Assembly: GCA_903900335.1 (NCBI GenBank)
Contig: CAIUMP010000004.1
Coordinates: forward strand, 62,001 to 126,000
DNA length: 64,000 bases
From: an uncultured Ignavibacteriota bacterium
GTDB taxonomy: Bacteria > Bacteroidota > Ignavibacteria > Palsa-1295
Direction of reading: 5' to 3'
Under the pieces are notes generated by a model that was given only the letters and a program-made list of their open reading frames with translations, did no database searches and had not been told where the DNA came from. Shown here piece by piece: positions 13,903-21,672 of the stretch; the stretch's first letter is position 1, and each line of letters starts with the position of its first letter. The translations under genes were made by a program, and so were the position numbers.

Positions 13903-16269
13903 TTACTGCGGGCGGATAACGAGCTTCTTGACGATTCGTCCAGTGAGGTCACTCAGTTCGAGCATGTACGTGCCCGGCGCCAGACCTTCACAGTCTATAA
14001 CCAACGTGTTTCCTTCGGAAGTGGTGAGCTTAGCGGTTCGTACAAGATCACCGCTTTCAGAAACGAATTTTATAGTGATAGGCGGGCTTAATTCTCCTGC
14101 GTTGATTCTAATGGATCGTGTTGCAGGATTTGGGTAAATTTCTGAGGTAGTGATGACTTCTTGAGAACTCGATACGGCCATTGGAGTATTGGAAATCGGC
14201 AAGTGATGCCACAGCAGCGCCCCGATTCCACGACTGTTTACGATCCACGGTCCCTCATAGATCGAATCTGTTCCATTGTAGTATTGATCGGGCAAATAGC
14301 CTATGGATTGGGCATTTGATGCGTGCTCCAGATTTATGAAGAGCGTGTCCCGACTGAACGAAAGAGATCCTACGTGGCTAGTGGTATCGTCCGGATACAA
14401 ATAGTCTTTCAATGTCTGAAGCTTCCCAGCAACGATCGTGTCGCTTGTCGAAGACAATTGGACTCCCCGTGGCGTGAAGAGGATCGCAATCCTGGTATGG
14501 CTCGGATCAGTGTAATAGGCGTAGATTGCGTTCGGACTTCGGAGGTCGTTGGTGTCTGTTGCGTTGTAGAAATCACGGGCAAGGGAAGCGAACAGGCGGT
14601 CGCCCAAGGCATCGTAGCCTCGATCATGGAAATGACATCCATCTTGACCCGCGATATTTCCAGTCGATATTGCTTCGACGCCAGGAATGGAAGCCGGGAT
14701 CATGCGTTGAACGTCTCGAAGGTCTATATTCCCCCAGCCACAATAATTGGGTCGATTCTGTGTCAAGTACACTTTTTGCAAGTTCGGGTAGTCTTCCTTC
14801 CAAGAGCGATAGAGTCGGACAAAATTATCGTAATATCCATCCGCATAATTGAGCTCTCCCTGATCCCAATAGACTGCGTGGATCCCTTCGAGCACATGGG
14901 CCTGGGTGGCCCGAAATAAAAGCCTTCCATAGACAGTACGGAGGTCGTACTTGTTAGAAGAGTCTCGTTCATGGGAGAGAATTCCAGTCCCACTTTGCGA
15001 TCCATTAATACAGCAGGATGGGATGCCTGCTTTCTCCAGCAGATTCCTTTGGATTCGTTGTCCCCATGCTCCAACGGAATTGTTATCCCCCCATTTAAAT
15101 GCAATAGCACGATCCCATGTGGTATCCCGCTTATTTTGGCTATAGTGCTGTCCGAAGGTTCGACAATACTCATTTCTGAAGGTGTCCACCTCGTATCCGT
15201 ATACGGCATTCGATTGGCCATCAATGAGGAAGGCATCTCCGCAAACGATGCTATCGGCCAGGGCAACGACGGAGTCCAGAAAGGAAGACTTAACGTGGAC
15301 CTCAATACGATATTCTGAAAGCTCTGCATGTATGCGTGGGGTAAACGTGAGCTTAGCGCTATTACCTGTGTAGCTAAGTGCGGAGGGTAGCCGGGATATC
15401 ACCTTGCCATTCTTGTATAGGAGCACATACGCTGAATCAAATCCAGGCCTAAATAGGGTACCAACGACTGGGATCGAAGCAGAGTCGTCTGCCCCACGCG
15501 GATAGAGTTCGAGTTTCTTGGGAACGACGGAAAACGTACTATCTGGTCTTGGGGCAGGAATCCCGTGTGCGATGTTGTAACGTGCTCGAAGGTATGAGTC
15601 GAGCGCCGCCACTTCGGGGGGCGAAAGTTCGCGGTCGAAGAGCATTACCTCTTGGATCTCACCATCCAGAAAATATCCTCGCTGGTAGGATCCAATGAGC
15701 AGTGTGCTATCCTTGCAGTCATCGAGGTAGGACGAATCTGCAAACTCACCATTGACAAATAATTTGGCCTGGTTATCCGCGCTCGAAAACAAGCCAAGAA
15801 CGGTCGATGGGGAGCTGGGCCACATCGGAACTGCTGCGATCTCCTGGTGGCTGAAGGAGTAATGAAGCATTCGGGGATACAGATCGCTGTTTAGCCACAA
15901 CGCATGGTTCGAGCCGGAGACGAGGTTATTCAGTTTCGAACTATTTGTGATGCTGGCGACCACTGCAATTGAGTAATCGTGTTCGGCGGGGAAGATATTT
16001 GGGCCTTCCAGGAAATTCAAGCCGTGAAACACGATGGAACTGTGTCCATTGATGGCGACGGTACCAGGATCGGGTCGACTGCTGGTATCCGTCATTCGGA
16101 CATCGTTACCCTTCCCACTTTGGTCCTTCCAGATTGCGACGTGACCACTCTCCAGAACCACTCCCGTATCAGCACGTAACCAAAGAAGCAGTCCGGGTGG
16201 TACGGTTTGTGCGTGGCCGCCGGAGGTGTACAAAAGAACCAGCCCAAAAACGATGAAGCACTTTGGCAT
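13903..16269 (-). CDS. Secreted LamG + SGNH/sialate O-acetylesterase-like protein with T9SS sorting domain
   Basis: The product has 788 residues from ATG 16269, where the signal peptide MPKCFIVFGLVLLY begins; an upstream ATG at 16326 is less likely. Residues ~25-240 resemble a concanavalin/LamG lectin-like fold (LLLWLRADTG, IWKDQSGKGND, DGEIQEVMLFDRELSPPEV). The next domain is SGNH-like: LIDGQSNAVYG (block I Ser, about residue 353), INGSQSGTG, VYWDQGELNY and DGCHFHDRGYDALGD (Asp/His dyad, about 545). This matches the sialate O-acetylesterase-type family, so it probably deacylates a carbohydrate. The end is a T9SS type A domain (IYPNPATRSIRIN, GTYMLELSDLTGR). Its paralogue is divergently transcribed at 16407. 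Confidence 0.83.
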   Translation of the reverse strand: MPKCFIVFGLVLLYTSGGHAQTVPPGLLLWLRADTGVVLESGHVAIWKDQSGKGNDVRMTDTSSRPDPGTVAINGHSSIVFHGLNFLEGPNIFPAEHDYSIAVVASITNSSKLNNLVSGSNHALWLNSDLYPRMLHYSFSHQEIAAVPMWPSSPSTVLGLFSSADNQAKLFVNGEFADSSYLDDCKDSTLLIGSYQRGYFLDGEIQEVMLFDRELSPPEVAALDSYLRARYNIAHGIPAPRPDSTFSVVPKKLELYPRGADDSASIPVVGTLFRPGFDSAYVLLYKNGKVISRLPSALSYTGNSAKLTFTPRIHAELSEYRIEVHVKSSFLDSVVALADSIVCGDAFLIDGQSNAVYGYEVDTFRNEYCRTFGQHYSQNKRDTTWDRAIAFKWGDNNSVGAWGQRIQRNLLEKAGIPSCCINGSQSGTGILSHERDSSNKYDLRTVYGRLLFRATQAHVLEGIHAVYWDQGELNYADGYYDNFVRLYRSWKEDYPNLQKVYLTQNRPNYCGWGNIDLRDVQRMIPASIPGVEAISTGNIAGQDGCHFHDRGYDALGDRLFASLARDFYNATDTNDLRSPNAIYAYYTDPSHTRIAILFTPRGVQLSSTSDTIVAGKLQTLKDYLYPDDTTSHVGSLSFSRDTLFINLEHASNAQSIGYLPDQYYNGTDSIYEGPWIVNSRGIGALLWHHLPISNTPMAVSSSQEVITTSEIYPNPATRSIRINAGELSPPITIKFVSESGDLVRTAKLTTSEGNTLVIDCEGLAPGTYMLELSDLTGRIVKKLVIRPQ

Positions 16270-16406
16270 AATCGGCGCGAGGGGTGTGAAGTAACTCAGT
16301 GATAAATTCTTGATGCGTAAAGGCACTTCCTTTCAGGACTAATTGCTTTCCAATAACAACGGGAGCACGAAATCCTTCCGAAGGGACTTTTTTTTGCACT
16401 TTGAGG

Positions 16407-18821
16407 ATGCTGAAGGGTTTTACATACATTCTTGTAATTGTTTCTATTGTCGCGATCTTCGGAGGGATATCCCCGCTTCATGCAGGGACTTCGCTTCACT
16501 GCGACGATTCAAGCCACTTCGAGGCCATTGTTCCATTGGATACTCTCACAGACTTCACCCTTGAGGCATGGGTTCGACTGGATGAGGCAAATCAATCTGG
16601 CCGTCCAATCTATTTCGGGGATGATTCAGACGGTTTTGGGCTCTATCTCTACAAGGATCTGACTCCCGGTTTTCCGAGTCCATTAATGCTTTCTGGTGGC
16701 AATGGACATCCTTCCATCACCGGCAATGTGGTGCATATTCCAATTGCTACATGGGTTCATATTGCCGTTACCAAGAAGGGGAATCTCTGGACGTTGTTCC
16801 GGAATGGGATGCTGGCTGGCCGAGGAACTCTTACTACCACAACCAGCAGACATATTCTCAGATTAGGCGAGTTCAAGGGAGAACTTCAGGAAATTCGAAT
16901 TTGGAAGACTGCGAGAAGCGGTCAGGAGATTTTGTCGTCTCTCTATTCTCATCTGAATGAAACGGATACTGGTCTATACCTTCAAGTGCCAATCGATAGC
17001 CTGACTGCCGACACAGTGATCGACAAGGCTCACGGATTCTTGTTTAGGCGAATCGGCTCATCTCTCGGCGTGAGGCCTGTCCCGAGTAGTCTATTACTGC
17101 CGGGGCTGCATGTTCCGGCTATTCACTGGGCTGCCATCCCTTCCTGCCTGCAGTTTCTTCCGCGAAATTCGAACGGTGTTGGCCGGGTGGAATTTTCTGG
17201 GACTATCCTTGAACCTGGTTATGATTCCGTGCTTGTCGAAAGATGGAAAGATAACGTTCTTGATCGGACACAGAGCCTGACATTGCCTCATGGTACAAGT
17301 TCTGCCTCTTTCGTATTCTACGACTCGATACCTGCAGAGTTATCGCAATACACCTTCCGTCTCTACTCCCGAAAAGGCAGCGCCCTTATCTACCTGGCGG
17401 AAGCGAGTGACCTCGTTGCTGGAGACGTCTATGTGGTAGATGGGCAGTCAAACGCGCACTTCGCGATCAACTGGTTTTACTGGCAAGTTCCGTTTGTTCG
17501 GTCATTTGGTATTCAGACATTGCATTCGAATTACGATTCCTATGACGTCGGCGACACAATCTGGGGTTATGCGAATTGCAGCGGCTGGGGAGGAGCCATT
17601 CTTAGTGGACCCTACCTCACGGGAGTCTGGCCGATGCGGCTCCAACAGGATATTGAAACGTCCTACGGGATTCCAGTGTGCATTATTAACGGTGCCACTG
17701 GTGGGTCGACAATTGAAGAACATGCGCGGAATGATTCCAATCGGGAGGACCTCTCGACGCCCTACGGTAGGCTTTTATATCGCGTAAAAAAGGCCGGTTG
17801 TTCAAGCGACATCAAGGCCATATTCTGGGATCAAGGTGAATTCAACACTTTTGACAAATACTATACTCAGTTCAAGAGGCTGTACGAAGATTGGCAGGAA
17901 GATTACCCCGGAGATGTAAAGCGAAAAGTGTACGTCTTGCAGGTGAGGCCAGGATGTGGGCCTGCAGGAGGCTCAAAGCTGCGGGAGTTGCAACGCTCGC
18001 TTACAGACTCACTGCCTAATATCGAAGTGATGTCCACGGTAGGAGTGCGAGGGCATGATGGTTGCCACTACGACGCGTTCGGGTATATCGATATTGGCGA
18101 TGCTGTCTTCCGTTTGGTGGCAAGGAATTACTACCGCTCTTCGGACACAGCTGAGATCCAGGCACCTAATGTCCAACGCGCTTTCTATTCCCGCCCTGAT
18201 AGCTCTGAGATCCGCTTAGTCTTTCGTGAACGCGACACCTCGCTTCGGATCACGATTCAGGACACGTTAGGCACACATCGAGAATTGCTGAAGGATTACT
18301 TCTTTCTTGATGGTAAAGTGGGTGCTGTTCGCGAAGTCCTTATACGCCGCGACACTGTTGTGCTGCAACTTAATGGGCGTAGTACTTCATCGCACATCAC
18401 GTATCTTCCAGATCAGAACTACTCGGATACTGACGCTGTGTATGAAGGCCCATGGATCGTGAACCGTCGTGGCATTGGGGTCCTCACTTTTGACAATCTA
18501 TCGATTTCCCCATTCCAATCAGATACTGGGCGCTCGATTGTTGATGAGCGCCTGAATGCCAAACTGGAAATTCCCTTTATCCATCTGCGACAATCCGTTG
18601 AAGCGACGCAACTCGAATTAGAAACTTCTTCGTTTGAAGTTGTGACGGTCAAGCTATTCAATCTATTGGGGCAGAACATCGCTTCGGTTGTTGTCCAATG
18701 CCAGCCGGGAATCCGGCTGCTAGTGCCACTGGATTCATTCAGACAAACTAGATTCTTGGGAATATACGCCGTTGCTCAATCGGGCGACGGCTCCACTCGG
18801 AGTTGGCTGCCGTTGCATTGA
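16407..18821 (+). CDS. Secreted LamG + SGNH/sialate O-acetylesterase-like paralogue
   Basis: The product has 804 residues from ATG 16407 (a TTG at 16401 is also in frame). It has a signal peptide (ILVIVSIVAIFGG), then a clear LamG domain (FTLEAWVRLDEANQSG, WVHIAVTKKGNLWTLFRNG, GELQEIRIWKTARSGQEI). The SGNH-like domain contains VVDGQSNAHF, INGATGGSTIEEHARNDSN, FWDQGEFNTFDKYY and DGCHYDAFGYIDIGD. It shares these blocks and the LPDQ-Y-x-TD-YEGPWIVN-RGIG stretch with the 13903 protein, so the two are ancient duplicates. Its C-terminus (VKLFNLLGQNIASVV) is a diverged T9SS sorting-like domain. The 137-base gap between the two genes must hold both promoters. Confidence 0.82.
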   Translation: MLKGFTYILVIVSIVAIFGGISPLHAGTSLHCDDSSHFEAIVPLDTLTDFTLEAWVRLDEANQSGRPIYFGDDSDGFGLYLYKDLTPGFPSPLMLSGGNGHPSITGNVVHIPIATWVHIAVTKKGNLWTLFRNGMLAGRGTLTTTTSRHILRLGEFKGELQEIRIWKTARSGQEILSSLYSHLNETDTGLYLQVPIDSLTADTVIDKAHGFLFRRIGSSLGVRPVPSSLLLPGLHVPAIHWAAIPSCLQFLPRNSNGVGRVEFSGTILEPGYDSVLVERWKDNVLDRTQSLTLPHGTSSASFVFYDSIPAELSQYTFRLYSRKGSALIYLAEASDLVAGDVYVVDGQSNAHFAINWFYWQVPFVRSFGIQTLHSNYDSYDVGDTIWGYANCSGWGGAILSGPYLTGVWPMRLQQDIETSYGIPVCIINGATGGSTIEEHARNDSNREDLSTPYGRLLYRVKKAGCSSDIKAIFWDQGEFNTFDKYYTQFKRLYEDWQEDYPGDVKRKVYVLQVRPGCGPAGGSKLRELQRSLTDSLPNIEVMSTVGVRGHDGCHYDAFGYIDIGDAVFRLVARNYYRSSDTAEIQAPNVQRAFYSRPDSSEIRLVFRERDTSLRITIQDTLGTHRELLKDYFFLDGKVGAVREVLIRRDTVVLQLNGRSTSSHITYLPDQNYSDTDAVYEGPWIVNRRGIGVLTFDNLSISPFQSDTGRSIVDERLNAKLEIPFIHLRQSVEATQLELETSSFEVVTVKLFNLLGQNIASVVVQCQPGIRLLVPLDSFRQTRFLGIYAVAQSGDGSTRSWLPLH

Positions 18822-19015: not shown

Positions 19016-19474
19016 ATGAAAACACGCAGAGAGTTTCTCACGGATATGGGAAAAATGGCTGGCGGGGTGCTGCTCGCGGCCCCGATCACAGCTGCAGTAC
19101 TTGAGGGCTGTCTTCCTACTTCGGTACCAATGGTGCCTATGCCGACCACCAGCACCGATATTTCCGTCGACGTCTCCGATCTGAGCGCTTCGAATCCCGC
19201 GAAGGTCGTCTCCGGCGTTACCGCGCCGGATGGCTTCGGGGTGATCGTGACTCGGATATCCGATTCGGACTATCGCGCACTCTCGATGCGATGTACCCAC
19301 CAGAACTGTTCGGTCGATAACAGGCTGAGTTCAGGCGAGATACATTGCGCCTGCCACGGATCGCTTTTCGCGCTCGATGGCAGTGTAGTCGTCTCTCCTG
19401 CAACGGTGCCACTCACATCCTATAAGGTGACCGTTGATCCTGCTGCTCACTTAGTCCACGCGAAGCTGGCATGA
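19016..19474 (+). CDS. Rieske [2Fe-2S] protein, Tat-type lipoprotein signal
   Basis: The product has 152 residues. The N-terminus MKTRREFLTDMGKMAGGVLL has the RRxFL twin-arginine pattern, followed by a hydrophobic stretch and a possible lipobox LEGC near residue 32, so export is probably folded through Tat and the protein membrane-anchored. The Rieske cluster ligands are present: CTHQNC (Cys, His) and CACHGSLF (Cys, His). The domain lies at about residues 55-150. Its stop overlaps the next start (ATGA), indicating coupling to the heme-motif barrel gene. Such Rieske proteins carry electrons from quinol or between envelope partners. No cytochrome b is nearby, so it is not a standard bc1 operon. 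Confidence 0.9.
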   Translation: MKTRREFLTDMGKMAGGVLLAAPITAAVLEGCLPTSVPMVPMPTTSTDISVDVSDLSASNPAKVVSGVTAPDGFGVIVTRISDSDYRALSMRCTHQNCSVDNRLSSGEIHCACHGSLFALDGSVVVSPATVPLTSYKVTVDPAAHLVHAKLA

Positions 19475-20691
19475 AACATTCAAGAACGTTTAGCTTCGCT
19501 GCGCTTCTAGTAGCAGTGCTAAGCTATTTCGGAGTTAGCGACGTCATTGCTATTCCCCGTTTTTCGCTTCTTACCGGTACGCGTTGCTCCGTCTGCCATT
19601 TTAATCCTCAGGGGAGCGGGCTCCGTACCCAACTTGGCTGGGAGATGATGAATCTTACCGGGCTCTACAAGTGGTCCGATCCCACACTGGACACGTCCGG
19701 GGTGATGCCAACGAATCTCATCCTCGGCGGTCATGTCGTACCTGGCGCTGATGCGCGTTTCCAGCTTGTGCGACTCTCCAGCACCGGGCAGGAGTTGCTG
19801 GTTCCGATGCAGCTCACCGCGTCGCTAGGAGTTATCGCGAATCAGCAGATCACTGCATCAACCAATATCAATCTCGCGAGCATGTATGTCCGTGCAAAAG
19901 CTGGTAGTGGCTCGCTTGGCACAAATGCCGGGCTTTACGCTGGCGAGACGGATGCCGACGCGATGATTCAGTATCAACCCAATGAGGCGTTGCCTTCTAT
20001 CCGTGTGGGAATGATCCAGCCCAGCATTGGTGTGCGTCAGGATGACCACACGGAGTTCGTTCGTGAAGAGGCAGCGATTCAGGGCATTGCACTGTTTCCA
20101 CCCTATTACAATGAAATGGGTGCGGAGCTTACCTACGAGGGCACACGCTGGCTTACGGTTAACGCAGGTTATTTCGGCGCGCGCAACTTGTCGATGATCG
20201 ATCCCTCGATTGGCACGGTCAGCGGCTACTTCGATTTCAGCCACCCGACGATGTCGGCGCGGGTCATGCTATGGCCGCAGCTACTAGAGCAGGGGATCAA
20301 CGGAGAAGTTGGTGCTTCGATCTTAAAGAATGGCTCCTTTAAGATGATCAATGCCTTCGCCGGCGTCGGGCTTGCCGACAAGGCAACCATCTACATTGAG
20401 GGTCTTTACTGCAAGAATGCCGACGATCGCATCATTCGCAATTTTACCATCATTGGAAGTATGGAGATCGTACCCTGGATGGCAATCGAATGGCGCTACG
20501 ATTACGGCCAGACCGAAGTCTATCCGGGTAAAGACCTTGCGTTCGCGAATGCATTTCTATTCGGACTCGAATTCTTCCCGCTGCCCTATATCGAGATCCG
20601 TCCTGAATACCGAATGCTCCAAAAGAACCCGTTCGTTGGTACCGGTGCCTATCAAGGACAGTGGACCGGGCAAATACACGTCTTTTACTAA
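19471..20691 (+). CDS. Outer-membrane beta-barrel-like protein with an N-terminal CxxCH heme motif
   Basis: The product has 406 residues with a signal peptide ending near VSDVIA. Directly after it is GTRCSVCHFNPQGSG, a single c-type heme attachment motif (CSVCH, residues 39-43). The remaining ~330 residues have alternating amphipathic strands (LGVIANQQITASTNINLASMY, MAIEWRYDYG, YIEIRPEYRML) and end in an aromatic residue (VFY), as outer-membrane barrels do. I do not know a named family for this arrangement. The start overlaps the Rieske stop by four bases and the cytochrome-lipoprotein gene begins 18 bases after its stop, so the three are most likely one operon for electron transfer at the outer membrane. 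Confidence 0.75.
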   Translation: MKHSRTFSFAALLVAVLSYFGVSDVIAIPRFSLLTGTRCSVCHFNPQGSGLRTQLGWEMMNLTGLYKWSDPTLDTSGVMPTNLILGGHVVPGADARFQLVRLSSTGQELLVPMQLTASLGVIANQQITASTNINLASMYVRAKAGSGSLGTNAGLYAGETDADAMIQYQPNEALPSIRVGMIQPSIGVRQDDHTEFVREEAAIQGIALFPPYYNEMGAELTYEGTRWLTVNAGYFGARNLSMIDPSIGTVSGYFDFSHPTMSARVMLWPQLLEQGINGEVGASILKNGSFKMINAFAGVGLADKATIYIEGLYCKNADDRIIRNFTIIGSMEIVPWMAIEWRYDYGQTEVYPGKDLAFANAFLFGLEFFPLPYIEIRPEYRMLQKNPFVGTGAYQGQWTGQIHVFY

Positions 20692-20709
20692 GTTTTCGTG
20701 GTCAGAACA

Positions 20710-21672
20710 ATGAGATTCAAGACGCTGCTGCGTGCACGTACCTGGAAGACCCTCTTCGCGTTTTTTCTGGTAGCGTTCGCATTTCGATCGGCTGGCTGCC
20801 AGTTCGATATTACGGGTAACCCCGACGTGAATCTGGTCACTGTACACGTATCCCCGGATAGCGCAGCCGTGCCAATGGGGGGCCAACTGACTCTGACTGC
20901 CACGGTCAAGGGTTACCTTGCCGATGGTACTGTTACATGGCTTGTGGATGGTTCGAACAAGGGCACGATCGTTGCGAACGGCCTCACTGCTATCTACACT
21001 GCGCCAGGTGCTGTCTTCCCGCCAGAGATTACAATTCGAGTTATCCCGAATGAGGATCCAACGCGTTACGTTCTCTGCCATCTTTTTGTATACCCGCCAG
21101 CGGACGTAACGCCGGAGGATACCTCTTTCACCGTCAGCCCTCATGCTGTGCGATTGCTGACAGGCAAGTCGCAGCAGTTCACCATTGACACAGTCACTTT
21201 TTCGACGACCGTCGGGCCTATCACGTGGAGTCTGGTAAGCGGCCCAGGGGATATTTCTGCGACGGGAGTGTATACAGCGCCGAGCACTTCGGACGATAGC
21301 ACCGTCGCAGTCATACGTGCAACTTCCGTTTTAAATCCGGCAGTGTACTCGGATGCACGAATTATTTTACTCAAGAATACAGACTCTCTCCTCTGTTTCA
21401 CCAGAGATGTGTTGCCCATCGTTTCCGGTAGTTGTGGCATGAGCAATTGCCATGATGCTGCCAAGAAAGCTGGTGGCTATGACTACAACACATACAGCGG
21501 TATGATCAAGAGCGTGAAGGTTGGCAGCGCCAGATCGAGCAGGATGTACACCGCGATGACGCAGTTCAACGCTGCGAGCCGGATGCCACCTCCACCTGCG
21601 AATGCGCTAACACCCAATCAGGTGCTCACCATCGGAAAGTGGATCAACGATGGTGCCTTAGACTGCCAGTAG
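20710..21672 (+). CDS. Lipoprotein with two Ig-like domains and a C-terminal cytochrome c-like domain
   Basis: The product has 320 residues from ATG 20710 (a GTG at 20698 is in frame). The signal ends in a lipobox (RSAGC, about residue 30). Two bacterial Ig-like repeats follow (VSPDSAAVPMGGQLTLTATV; VSPHAVRLLTGKSQQFTID). The last ~85 residues form a small cytochrome-like domain: VLPIVSGSCGMSNCHDAA with the CX4CH variant, YDYNTYSGM, RMPPPPANALTPNQVL and WINDGALDC. This pattern is common in surface cytochrome-type domains of Bacteroidota and Planctomycetes. It is probably a membrane-anchored electron acceptor or donor for the Rieske and barrel partners upstream. The role is inference from context. 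Confidence 0.78.
   Translation: MRFKTLLRARTWKTLFAFFLVAFAFRSAGCQFDITGNPDVNLVTVHVSPDSAAVPMGGQLTLTATVKGYLADGTVTWLVDGSNKGTIVANGLTAIYTAPGAVFPPEITIRVIPNEDPTRYVLCHLFVYPPADVTPEDTSFTVSPHAVRLLTGKSQQFTIDTVTFSTTVGPITWSLVSGPGDISATGVYTAPSTSDDSTVAVIRATSVLNPAVYSDARIILLKNTDSLLCFTRDVLPIVSGSCGMSNCHDAAKKAGGYDYNTYSGMIKSVKVGSARSSRMYTAMTQFNAASRMPPPPANALTPNQVLTIGKWINDGALDCQ

Follow-up and report, generated by a model that had tools for sequence, protein, structure and literature searches.

To our knowledge, electrons are conducted across the outer membrane either by multiheme cytochromes held in a barrel or by Cyc2. In the MtrCAB/PioAB/OmbB-type porin-cytochrome complexes, a barrel and its cytochromes together form the outer-membrane conduit (PMC7399161). 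In Cyc2, a porin carries one heme in a fused N-terminal segment, and the members tested are iron oxidases; the protein is defined by the motif AXPXFAR[Q/K][T/Y] upstream of CXXCH and by PXL downstream (PMC8406198).

We analysed a 64,000-nt stretch of DNA (the window) from an uncultured Ignavibacteriota bacterium. A co-directional three-gene set at 19016-21672 (+) encodes a Rieske lipoprotein, a 406-aa barrel-like protein and an Ig-like cytochrome lipoprotein. The Rieske stop codon and the start of the barrel-like gene share an ATGA overlap, and a gap of 6 nt separates the stop of the barrel-like gene from the cytochrome lipoprotein gene, in agreement with the three reading frames, their order and their close linkage in the original prediction.

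Layout of the operon and its lipoproteins

The three-gene set was kept in the window genus. A paralogous operon was present on another contig of the window genome (G000:C44), where the gene order is Rieske-lipoprotein-barrel, a 217-aa ORF precedes the barrel gene and the barrel copy is 65% identical to that of the window. Since the CxxCH motif of the barrel-like protein is invariant in 62/62 homologues, the set is conserved in the genus and a paralogous operon occurs in the same genome, the arrangement represents more than chance. Scanning for promoters and terminators gave no signal exceeding that of shuffled sequences.

The first gene (19016..19474, +) encodes a 152-aa Rieske [2Fe-2S] protein (Pfam PF00355, 9.8e-13) carrying the Tat motif TRREFL and a lipobox Cys32 (19109-19111, +). 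By sequence and homologue list, the cluster motifs CTHQNC and HCACH (19292..19357, +) provide the ligands C93-T-H95 and C111-A-C-H114, that is, the C-x-H ... C-x2-H pattern of Rieske proteins within the PF00355 domain, together with both disulfide cysteines. The Tat-type Rieske protein of the original prediction was therefore recovered with domain, export motif and cluster ligands. Most of its homologues likewise have a Tat motif together with a lipobox-like Cys, so that the protein is best described, from its sequence, as a Tat lipoprotein. It shares the PF00355 domain with bc1/b6f Rieske subunits and has disulfide cysteines; unlike those subunits, it is a Tat lipoprotein that reached at best 40.9 bits against their curated-family cut-off of 250 (TIGR01416, 30.3 against a cut-off of 97.4), and its gene adjoins those of the putative heme-porin and the cytochrome lipoprotein. 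About a dozen barrel-linked Rieske proteins, several of them within multiheme clusters, retained the cluster ligands and lacked the disulfide cysteines (loci including L074, L079, L084, L089, L093, L095, L096, L098, L101 and L107); these versions may be low-potential forms.

The third gene (20698..21672, +) encodes 324 aa when read from the GTG at 20698, with an alternative ATG at 20710. The protein matched Big_2 (2.5e-6) and PSCyt1 (7.7e-5), and demonstrated a lipobox Cys34 (20797-20799, +) and the CX4CH heme motif CGMSNCH at residues 246-252 (21433..21453, +), which was kept in four homologues, confirming the predicted Ig/cytochrome lipoprotein. In its structural model, confidence is moderate for the two beta domains and low for the helical C-terminal part, and the model is usable for the Ig-like part only. 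The barrel goes together with cytochrome lipoproteins in the window genus, and these are present at other loci too.

The 406-aa monoheme protein compared with Cyc2

The middle gene (19471..20691, +) was delineated from its ORF and the family alignment. The heme-attachment motif CSVCH (residues 39-43; 19585..19599, +) directly follows the signal peptide, as had been predicted, and the invariance of CxxCH given above removes the objection that it might not be conserved among homologues. The other invariant positions in the 62 aligned homologues were R52, G56, G92, R96, M113, G180, D192, G217, G281 and G365, including an Arg at +13 and a Gly at +17 relative to CxxCH. Position 193, within RQDDHT (residues 189-194; 20035..20052, +), was His in 60 homologues and Met in 2; because such a swap exchanges two common heme ligands, His193 may be the distal ligand of the heme, with Met113 and His403 as further candidates. 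The two Met193 copies (L100 and L108), in which RxDDHT reads RDCDMT (His193 to Met, Asp191 to Cys), are closely related, have no Rieske neighbour and carry a monoheme cytochrome upstream instead.

The protein fell into no Pfam family, had only sub-threshold NCBIfam matches, and yielded no relative of solved structure in a PDB search. Matches of single family members to porin families were weak, the best Pfam match of any member being Porin_4 (4.8e-5). Citrate synthase matches in NCBIfam and the PDB were short and far under the cut-off, and were judged to be chance. By profile search, 69 of 395 genomes sampled from the phylum carry the family, 68 of them from the window's class, of which 98 were sampled; the sole positive genome outside the class gave a 54-position N-terminal match. 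Public relatives came from one Candidatus Kapaibacterium MAG and one other Bacteroidetes MAG, and no relative was found in the viral contigs and plasmids searched. The family can be searched with the motif AxPxFxLLTGxRCxxCHxNPxGGGxRNxxG. The homologue at G042:C15:176032-176868 is surrounded by an open frame reported as 24,413 aa, which is implausible for such a gene and may be read either as a giant gene or as an effect of assembly or masking.

A strand-periodicity scan of the family alignment gave 14 strand-like peaks compared to 8.5 +/- 1.8 in shuffles (shuffle maximum 15), and the same scan of true-motif Cyc2, used as a control, gave 15 compared to 5.9 +/- 1.7. A conserved aromatic residue ends the protein at its C-terminus. 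Given the strand periodicity, the size and the C-terminal aromatic, the 406-aa protein is likely a beta-barrel forming an outer-membrane pore. AlphaFold2, supplied with an alignment of only three sequences, modelled no barrel (pLDDT 27), and its result was set aside.

The nearest known protein is Cyc2, a fused monoheme cytochrome-porin iron oxidase. Both have a signal peptide, an AxPxF..xTGxxCxxCH monoheme segment, many predicted beta strands and a length of about 400 aa; the 406-aa protein has the single CXXCH behind a signal peptide, and the length of at least 365 aa, by which Cyc2 is recognised. The defining motifs, however, differed: AIPRFSLLTGTRCSVCH keeps AxPxF and the T and lacks AR[Q/K], and the downstream sequence in the window, CHFNPQGSGLR, contains no PxL. 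With regard to the 16-stranded porin domain of Cyc2, the observations on the 406-aa protein are the 14 strand-like peaks and the low-scoring three-sequence model described above. Strict Cyc2 membership was rejected because the AR[Q/K][T/Y] and PxL motifs are missing. The new family also differs in its own signature, CHxNPxGGGxRNxxG and DDH193, and in its genomic neighbour, a Rieske lipoprotein, whereas at the four Cyc2 loci examined in the window's class a cytochrome c gene adjoins Cyc2 and no Rieske gene was seen. The new family probably works like Cyc2 yet fails the published membership test. The original prediction had called a heme on a barrel N-terminus unusual, which was half right, as Cyc2 already has that architecture (PMC8406198).

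When the new family was aligned to Cyc2 with hhalign, the heme segment gave 96.0% (P 4.7e-9) and the whole length 96.5% over 320 columns. The barrel part alone aligned weakly and in a direction-dependent manner (P 8.8e-5 and 0.022; reversed control 0.32), and HMM matches between the two families were essentially limited to the N-terminal part. By profile, the heme segments are related; homology of the barrel parts is not claimed because that alignment is weak and direction-dependent.

A DNA pattern derived from the motif as published (PMC8406198) served to collect genes with the true Cyc2 motif across the phylum. Within the window's class, three genomes of another family have them, as does a single genome of the window's family (G007), which lacks the new heme-porin; its gene lies beside a diheme cytochrome c (L151:5891-7138, -). 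Outside the class, they were found in 17 genomes of one family, which may be Chlorobiaceae.

Gene neighbourhoods among relatives

A Rieske gene with an intact ligand motif lay on the same strand within 3 kb of the barrel at 43 of 61 loci, which are related to each other. Neighbourhood conservation, named as a check in the original prediction, was observed. The window genome has 7 Rieske genes in 4.0 Mb, and chance placement would therefore give under 1%. The association covers most of a 50-member clade of the family tree but is missing from a sister clade of 12 members.

In one family of the same class (f18), a five- or six-heme lipoprotein flanks the barrel, followed at several loci by a monoheme cytochrome, a 13-heme cytochrome and a cytochrome b561 and NapC/NirT fusion protein; the hexaheme protein of locus L098 has an MtrC/MtrF-type domain. 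Such an f18 cluster could plausibly lead electrons from the quinone pool to the cell surface. Like MtrCAB/PioAB/OmbB-type systems, these clusters contain multiheme cytochromes, including the one with the MtrC/MtrF-type domain, whereas the barrel-like protein is much smaller, with the heme fused on and no decaheme inside, and its partners in the window operon are single-heme proteins and the Rieske protein only. The Mtr-type placement of a porin gene beside a multiheme cytochrome gene was found in f18; around the operon in the window genus, no gene for a multiheme cytochrome was seen. YceI-family and small uncharacterised proteins neighbour the barrel at some loci. With two heme-copper oxidases and one NrfD-family gene in its genome, the host can probably respire oxygen.

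Two predicted secreted proteins adjoin a Rieske-less barrel copy at L104:7467-9374 (-). Both carry a similar N-terminal monoheme mini-motif, CxxCHV...GG..N.FG, as if the heme segment were portable.

The proposed conduit and its alternatives

We regard it as moderately probable that the operon is a Cyc2-like, Rieske-coupled trans-outer-membrane electron conduit. The 406-aa protein would be exported, carry one covalent heme at CSVCH and form a beta-barrel in the membrane, plugged by the small heme segment at its N-terminus. Its periplasmic redox partner would be the Rieske protein, exported by Tat and anchored by a lipid, which would join the barrel heme to the respiratory chain, and the Ig/cytochrome lipoprotein would add a further heme to the wire, or two in the case of the paralogous operon, either at the cell surface or within the periplasm. 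Bearing the disulfide and presumably of high potential, the Rieske protein of the window genome would fit an uptake of electrons or their exchange with partners of high potential. Where relatives have b561/NapC-type and 13-heme cytochromes, this core may pass electrons outward, a direction suggested by the copies that adjoin b561/NapC-type multiheme cytochromes. Gene order, motif invariance and conserved association were observed, and from these we infer heme attachment, the barrel, its location, and whether and which way electrons flow. The original interpretation is partly supported: given the invariant heme motif, the constant Rieske neighbour and the multiheme partners in relatives, passage of electrons across the outer membrane is the most likely function; the barrel has support of its own, and heme attachment and electron transfer are deduced. 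Counting against a conduit, one heme covers little of the membrane unless partners approach closely; further counts against it are the missing barrel in the AlphaFold2 model, the lack of a Pfam family and of a solved relative, the Rieske-less sister clade and the window-genus operons beside which no multiheme gene was seen.

The protein could instead do the work of Cyc2 and oxidise Fe(II) at the outer membrane, passing electrons from dissolved iron to an aerobic chain, with the Rieske protein replacing the usual periplasmic cytochrome. The shared architecture and length, the related heme segments, the disulfide-type Rieske and heme-copper oxidases of the window genome, and the true-motif Cyc2 in the same-family genome without a 406-aa family protein are all consistent with this reading. 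We consider it unlikely, as AR[Q/K][T/Y] and PxL are missing, the barrel parts barely align with Cyc2, and some copies lie beside b561/NapC-type multiheme cytochromes that suggest outward flow.

Less probable still, the 406-aa protein would be an outer-membrane porin that uses its heme for sensing, for peroxide or nitric-oxide chemistry or for stability; the Rieske protein and the cytochrome lipoprotein would together make up a redox enzyme of the periplasm, and no electrons would cross the membrane. The single heme site, the YceI-family and small unknown proteins at some loci, and the 12-member clade without a Rieske neighbour would suit such a protein, but surface-type hexaheme and 13-heme cytochromes adjoin the same protein in one family, and its likeness is to Cyc2, in which the members tested are iron oxidases (PMC8406198). 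The lack of a confident fold in the three-sequence AlphaFold model and the weak porin-family matches would also agree with there being no barrel, in which case a periplasmic or lipid-associated beta protein would take part with the other two in a periplasmic electron-transfer chain. This appears highly improbable in view of the Cyc2-like strand periodicity, the conserved C-terminal aromatic and the whole-length profile match to Cyc2, weak though the match is over the barrel alone.

Extended to the whole class, the Rieske-coupled conduit becomes a monoheme porin family that connects the outer membrane with a Rieske lipoprotein, takes up or exports electrons according to the cytochromes of each lineage, and is distinct from both Cyc2 and Mtr-type systems; we give this wider claim slightly less than an even chance. 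A Rieske-linked cytochrome-porin was not found in the literature searched, which takes in few of the subscription journals. If true, the heme-porin and Rieske lipoprotein would be a new pairing among outer-membrane conduits, and possible extracellular electron transfer would reach many uncultured bacteria missed by strict Cyc2 motif screens. Some copies have quinol-linked multiheme partners and others lack them, and comparing the two offers a way to test in which direction electrons flow.

The window also contains two divergent genes for secreted proteins, back to back at 13903-16326 (-) and 16401-18821 (+) and encoding 807 and 806 aa, respectively; the latter protein has Laminin_G_3 and SASA acetylesterase domains.
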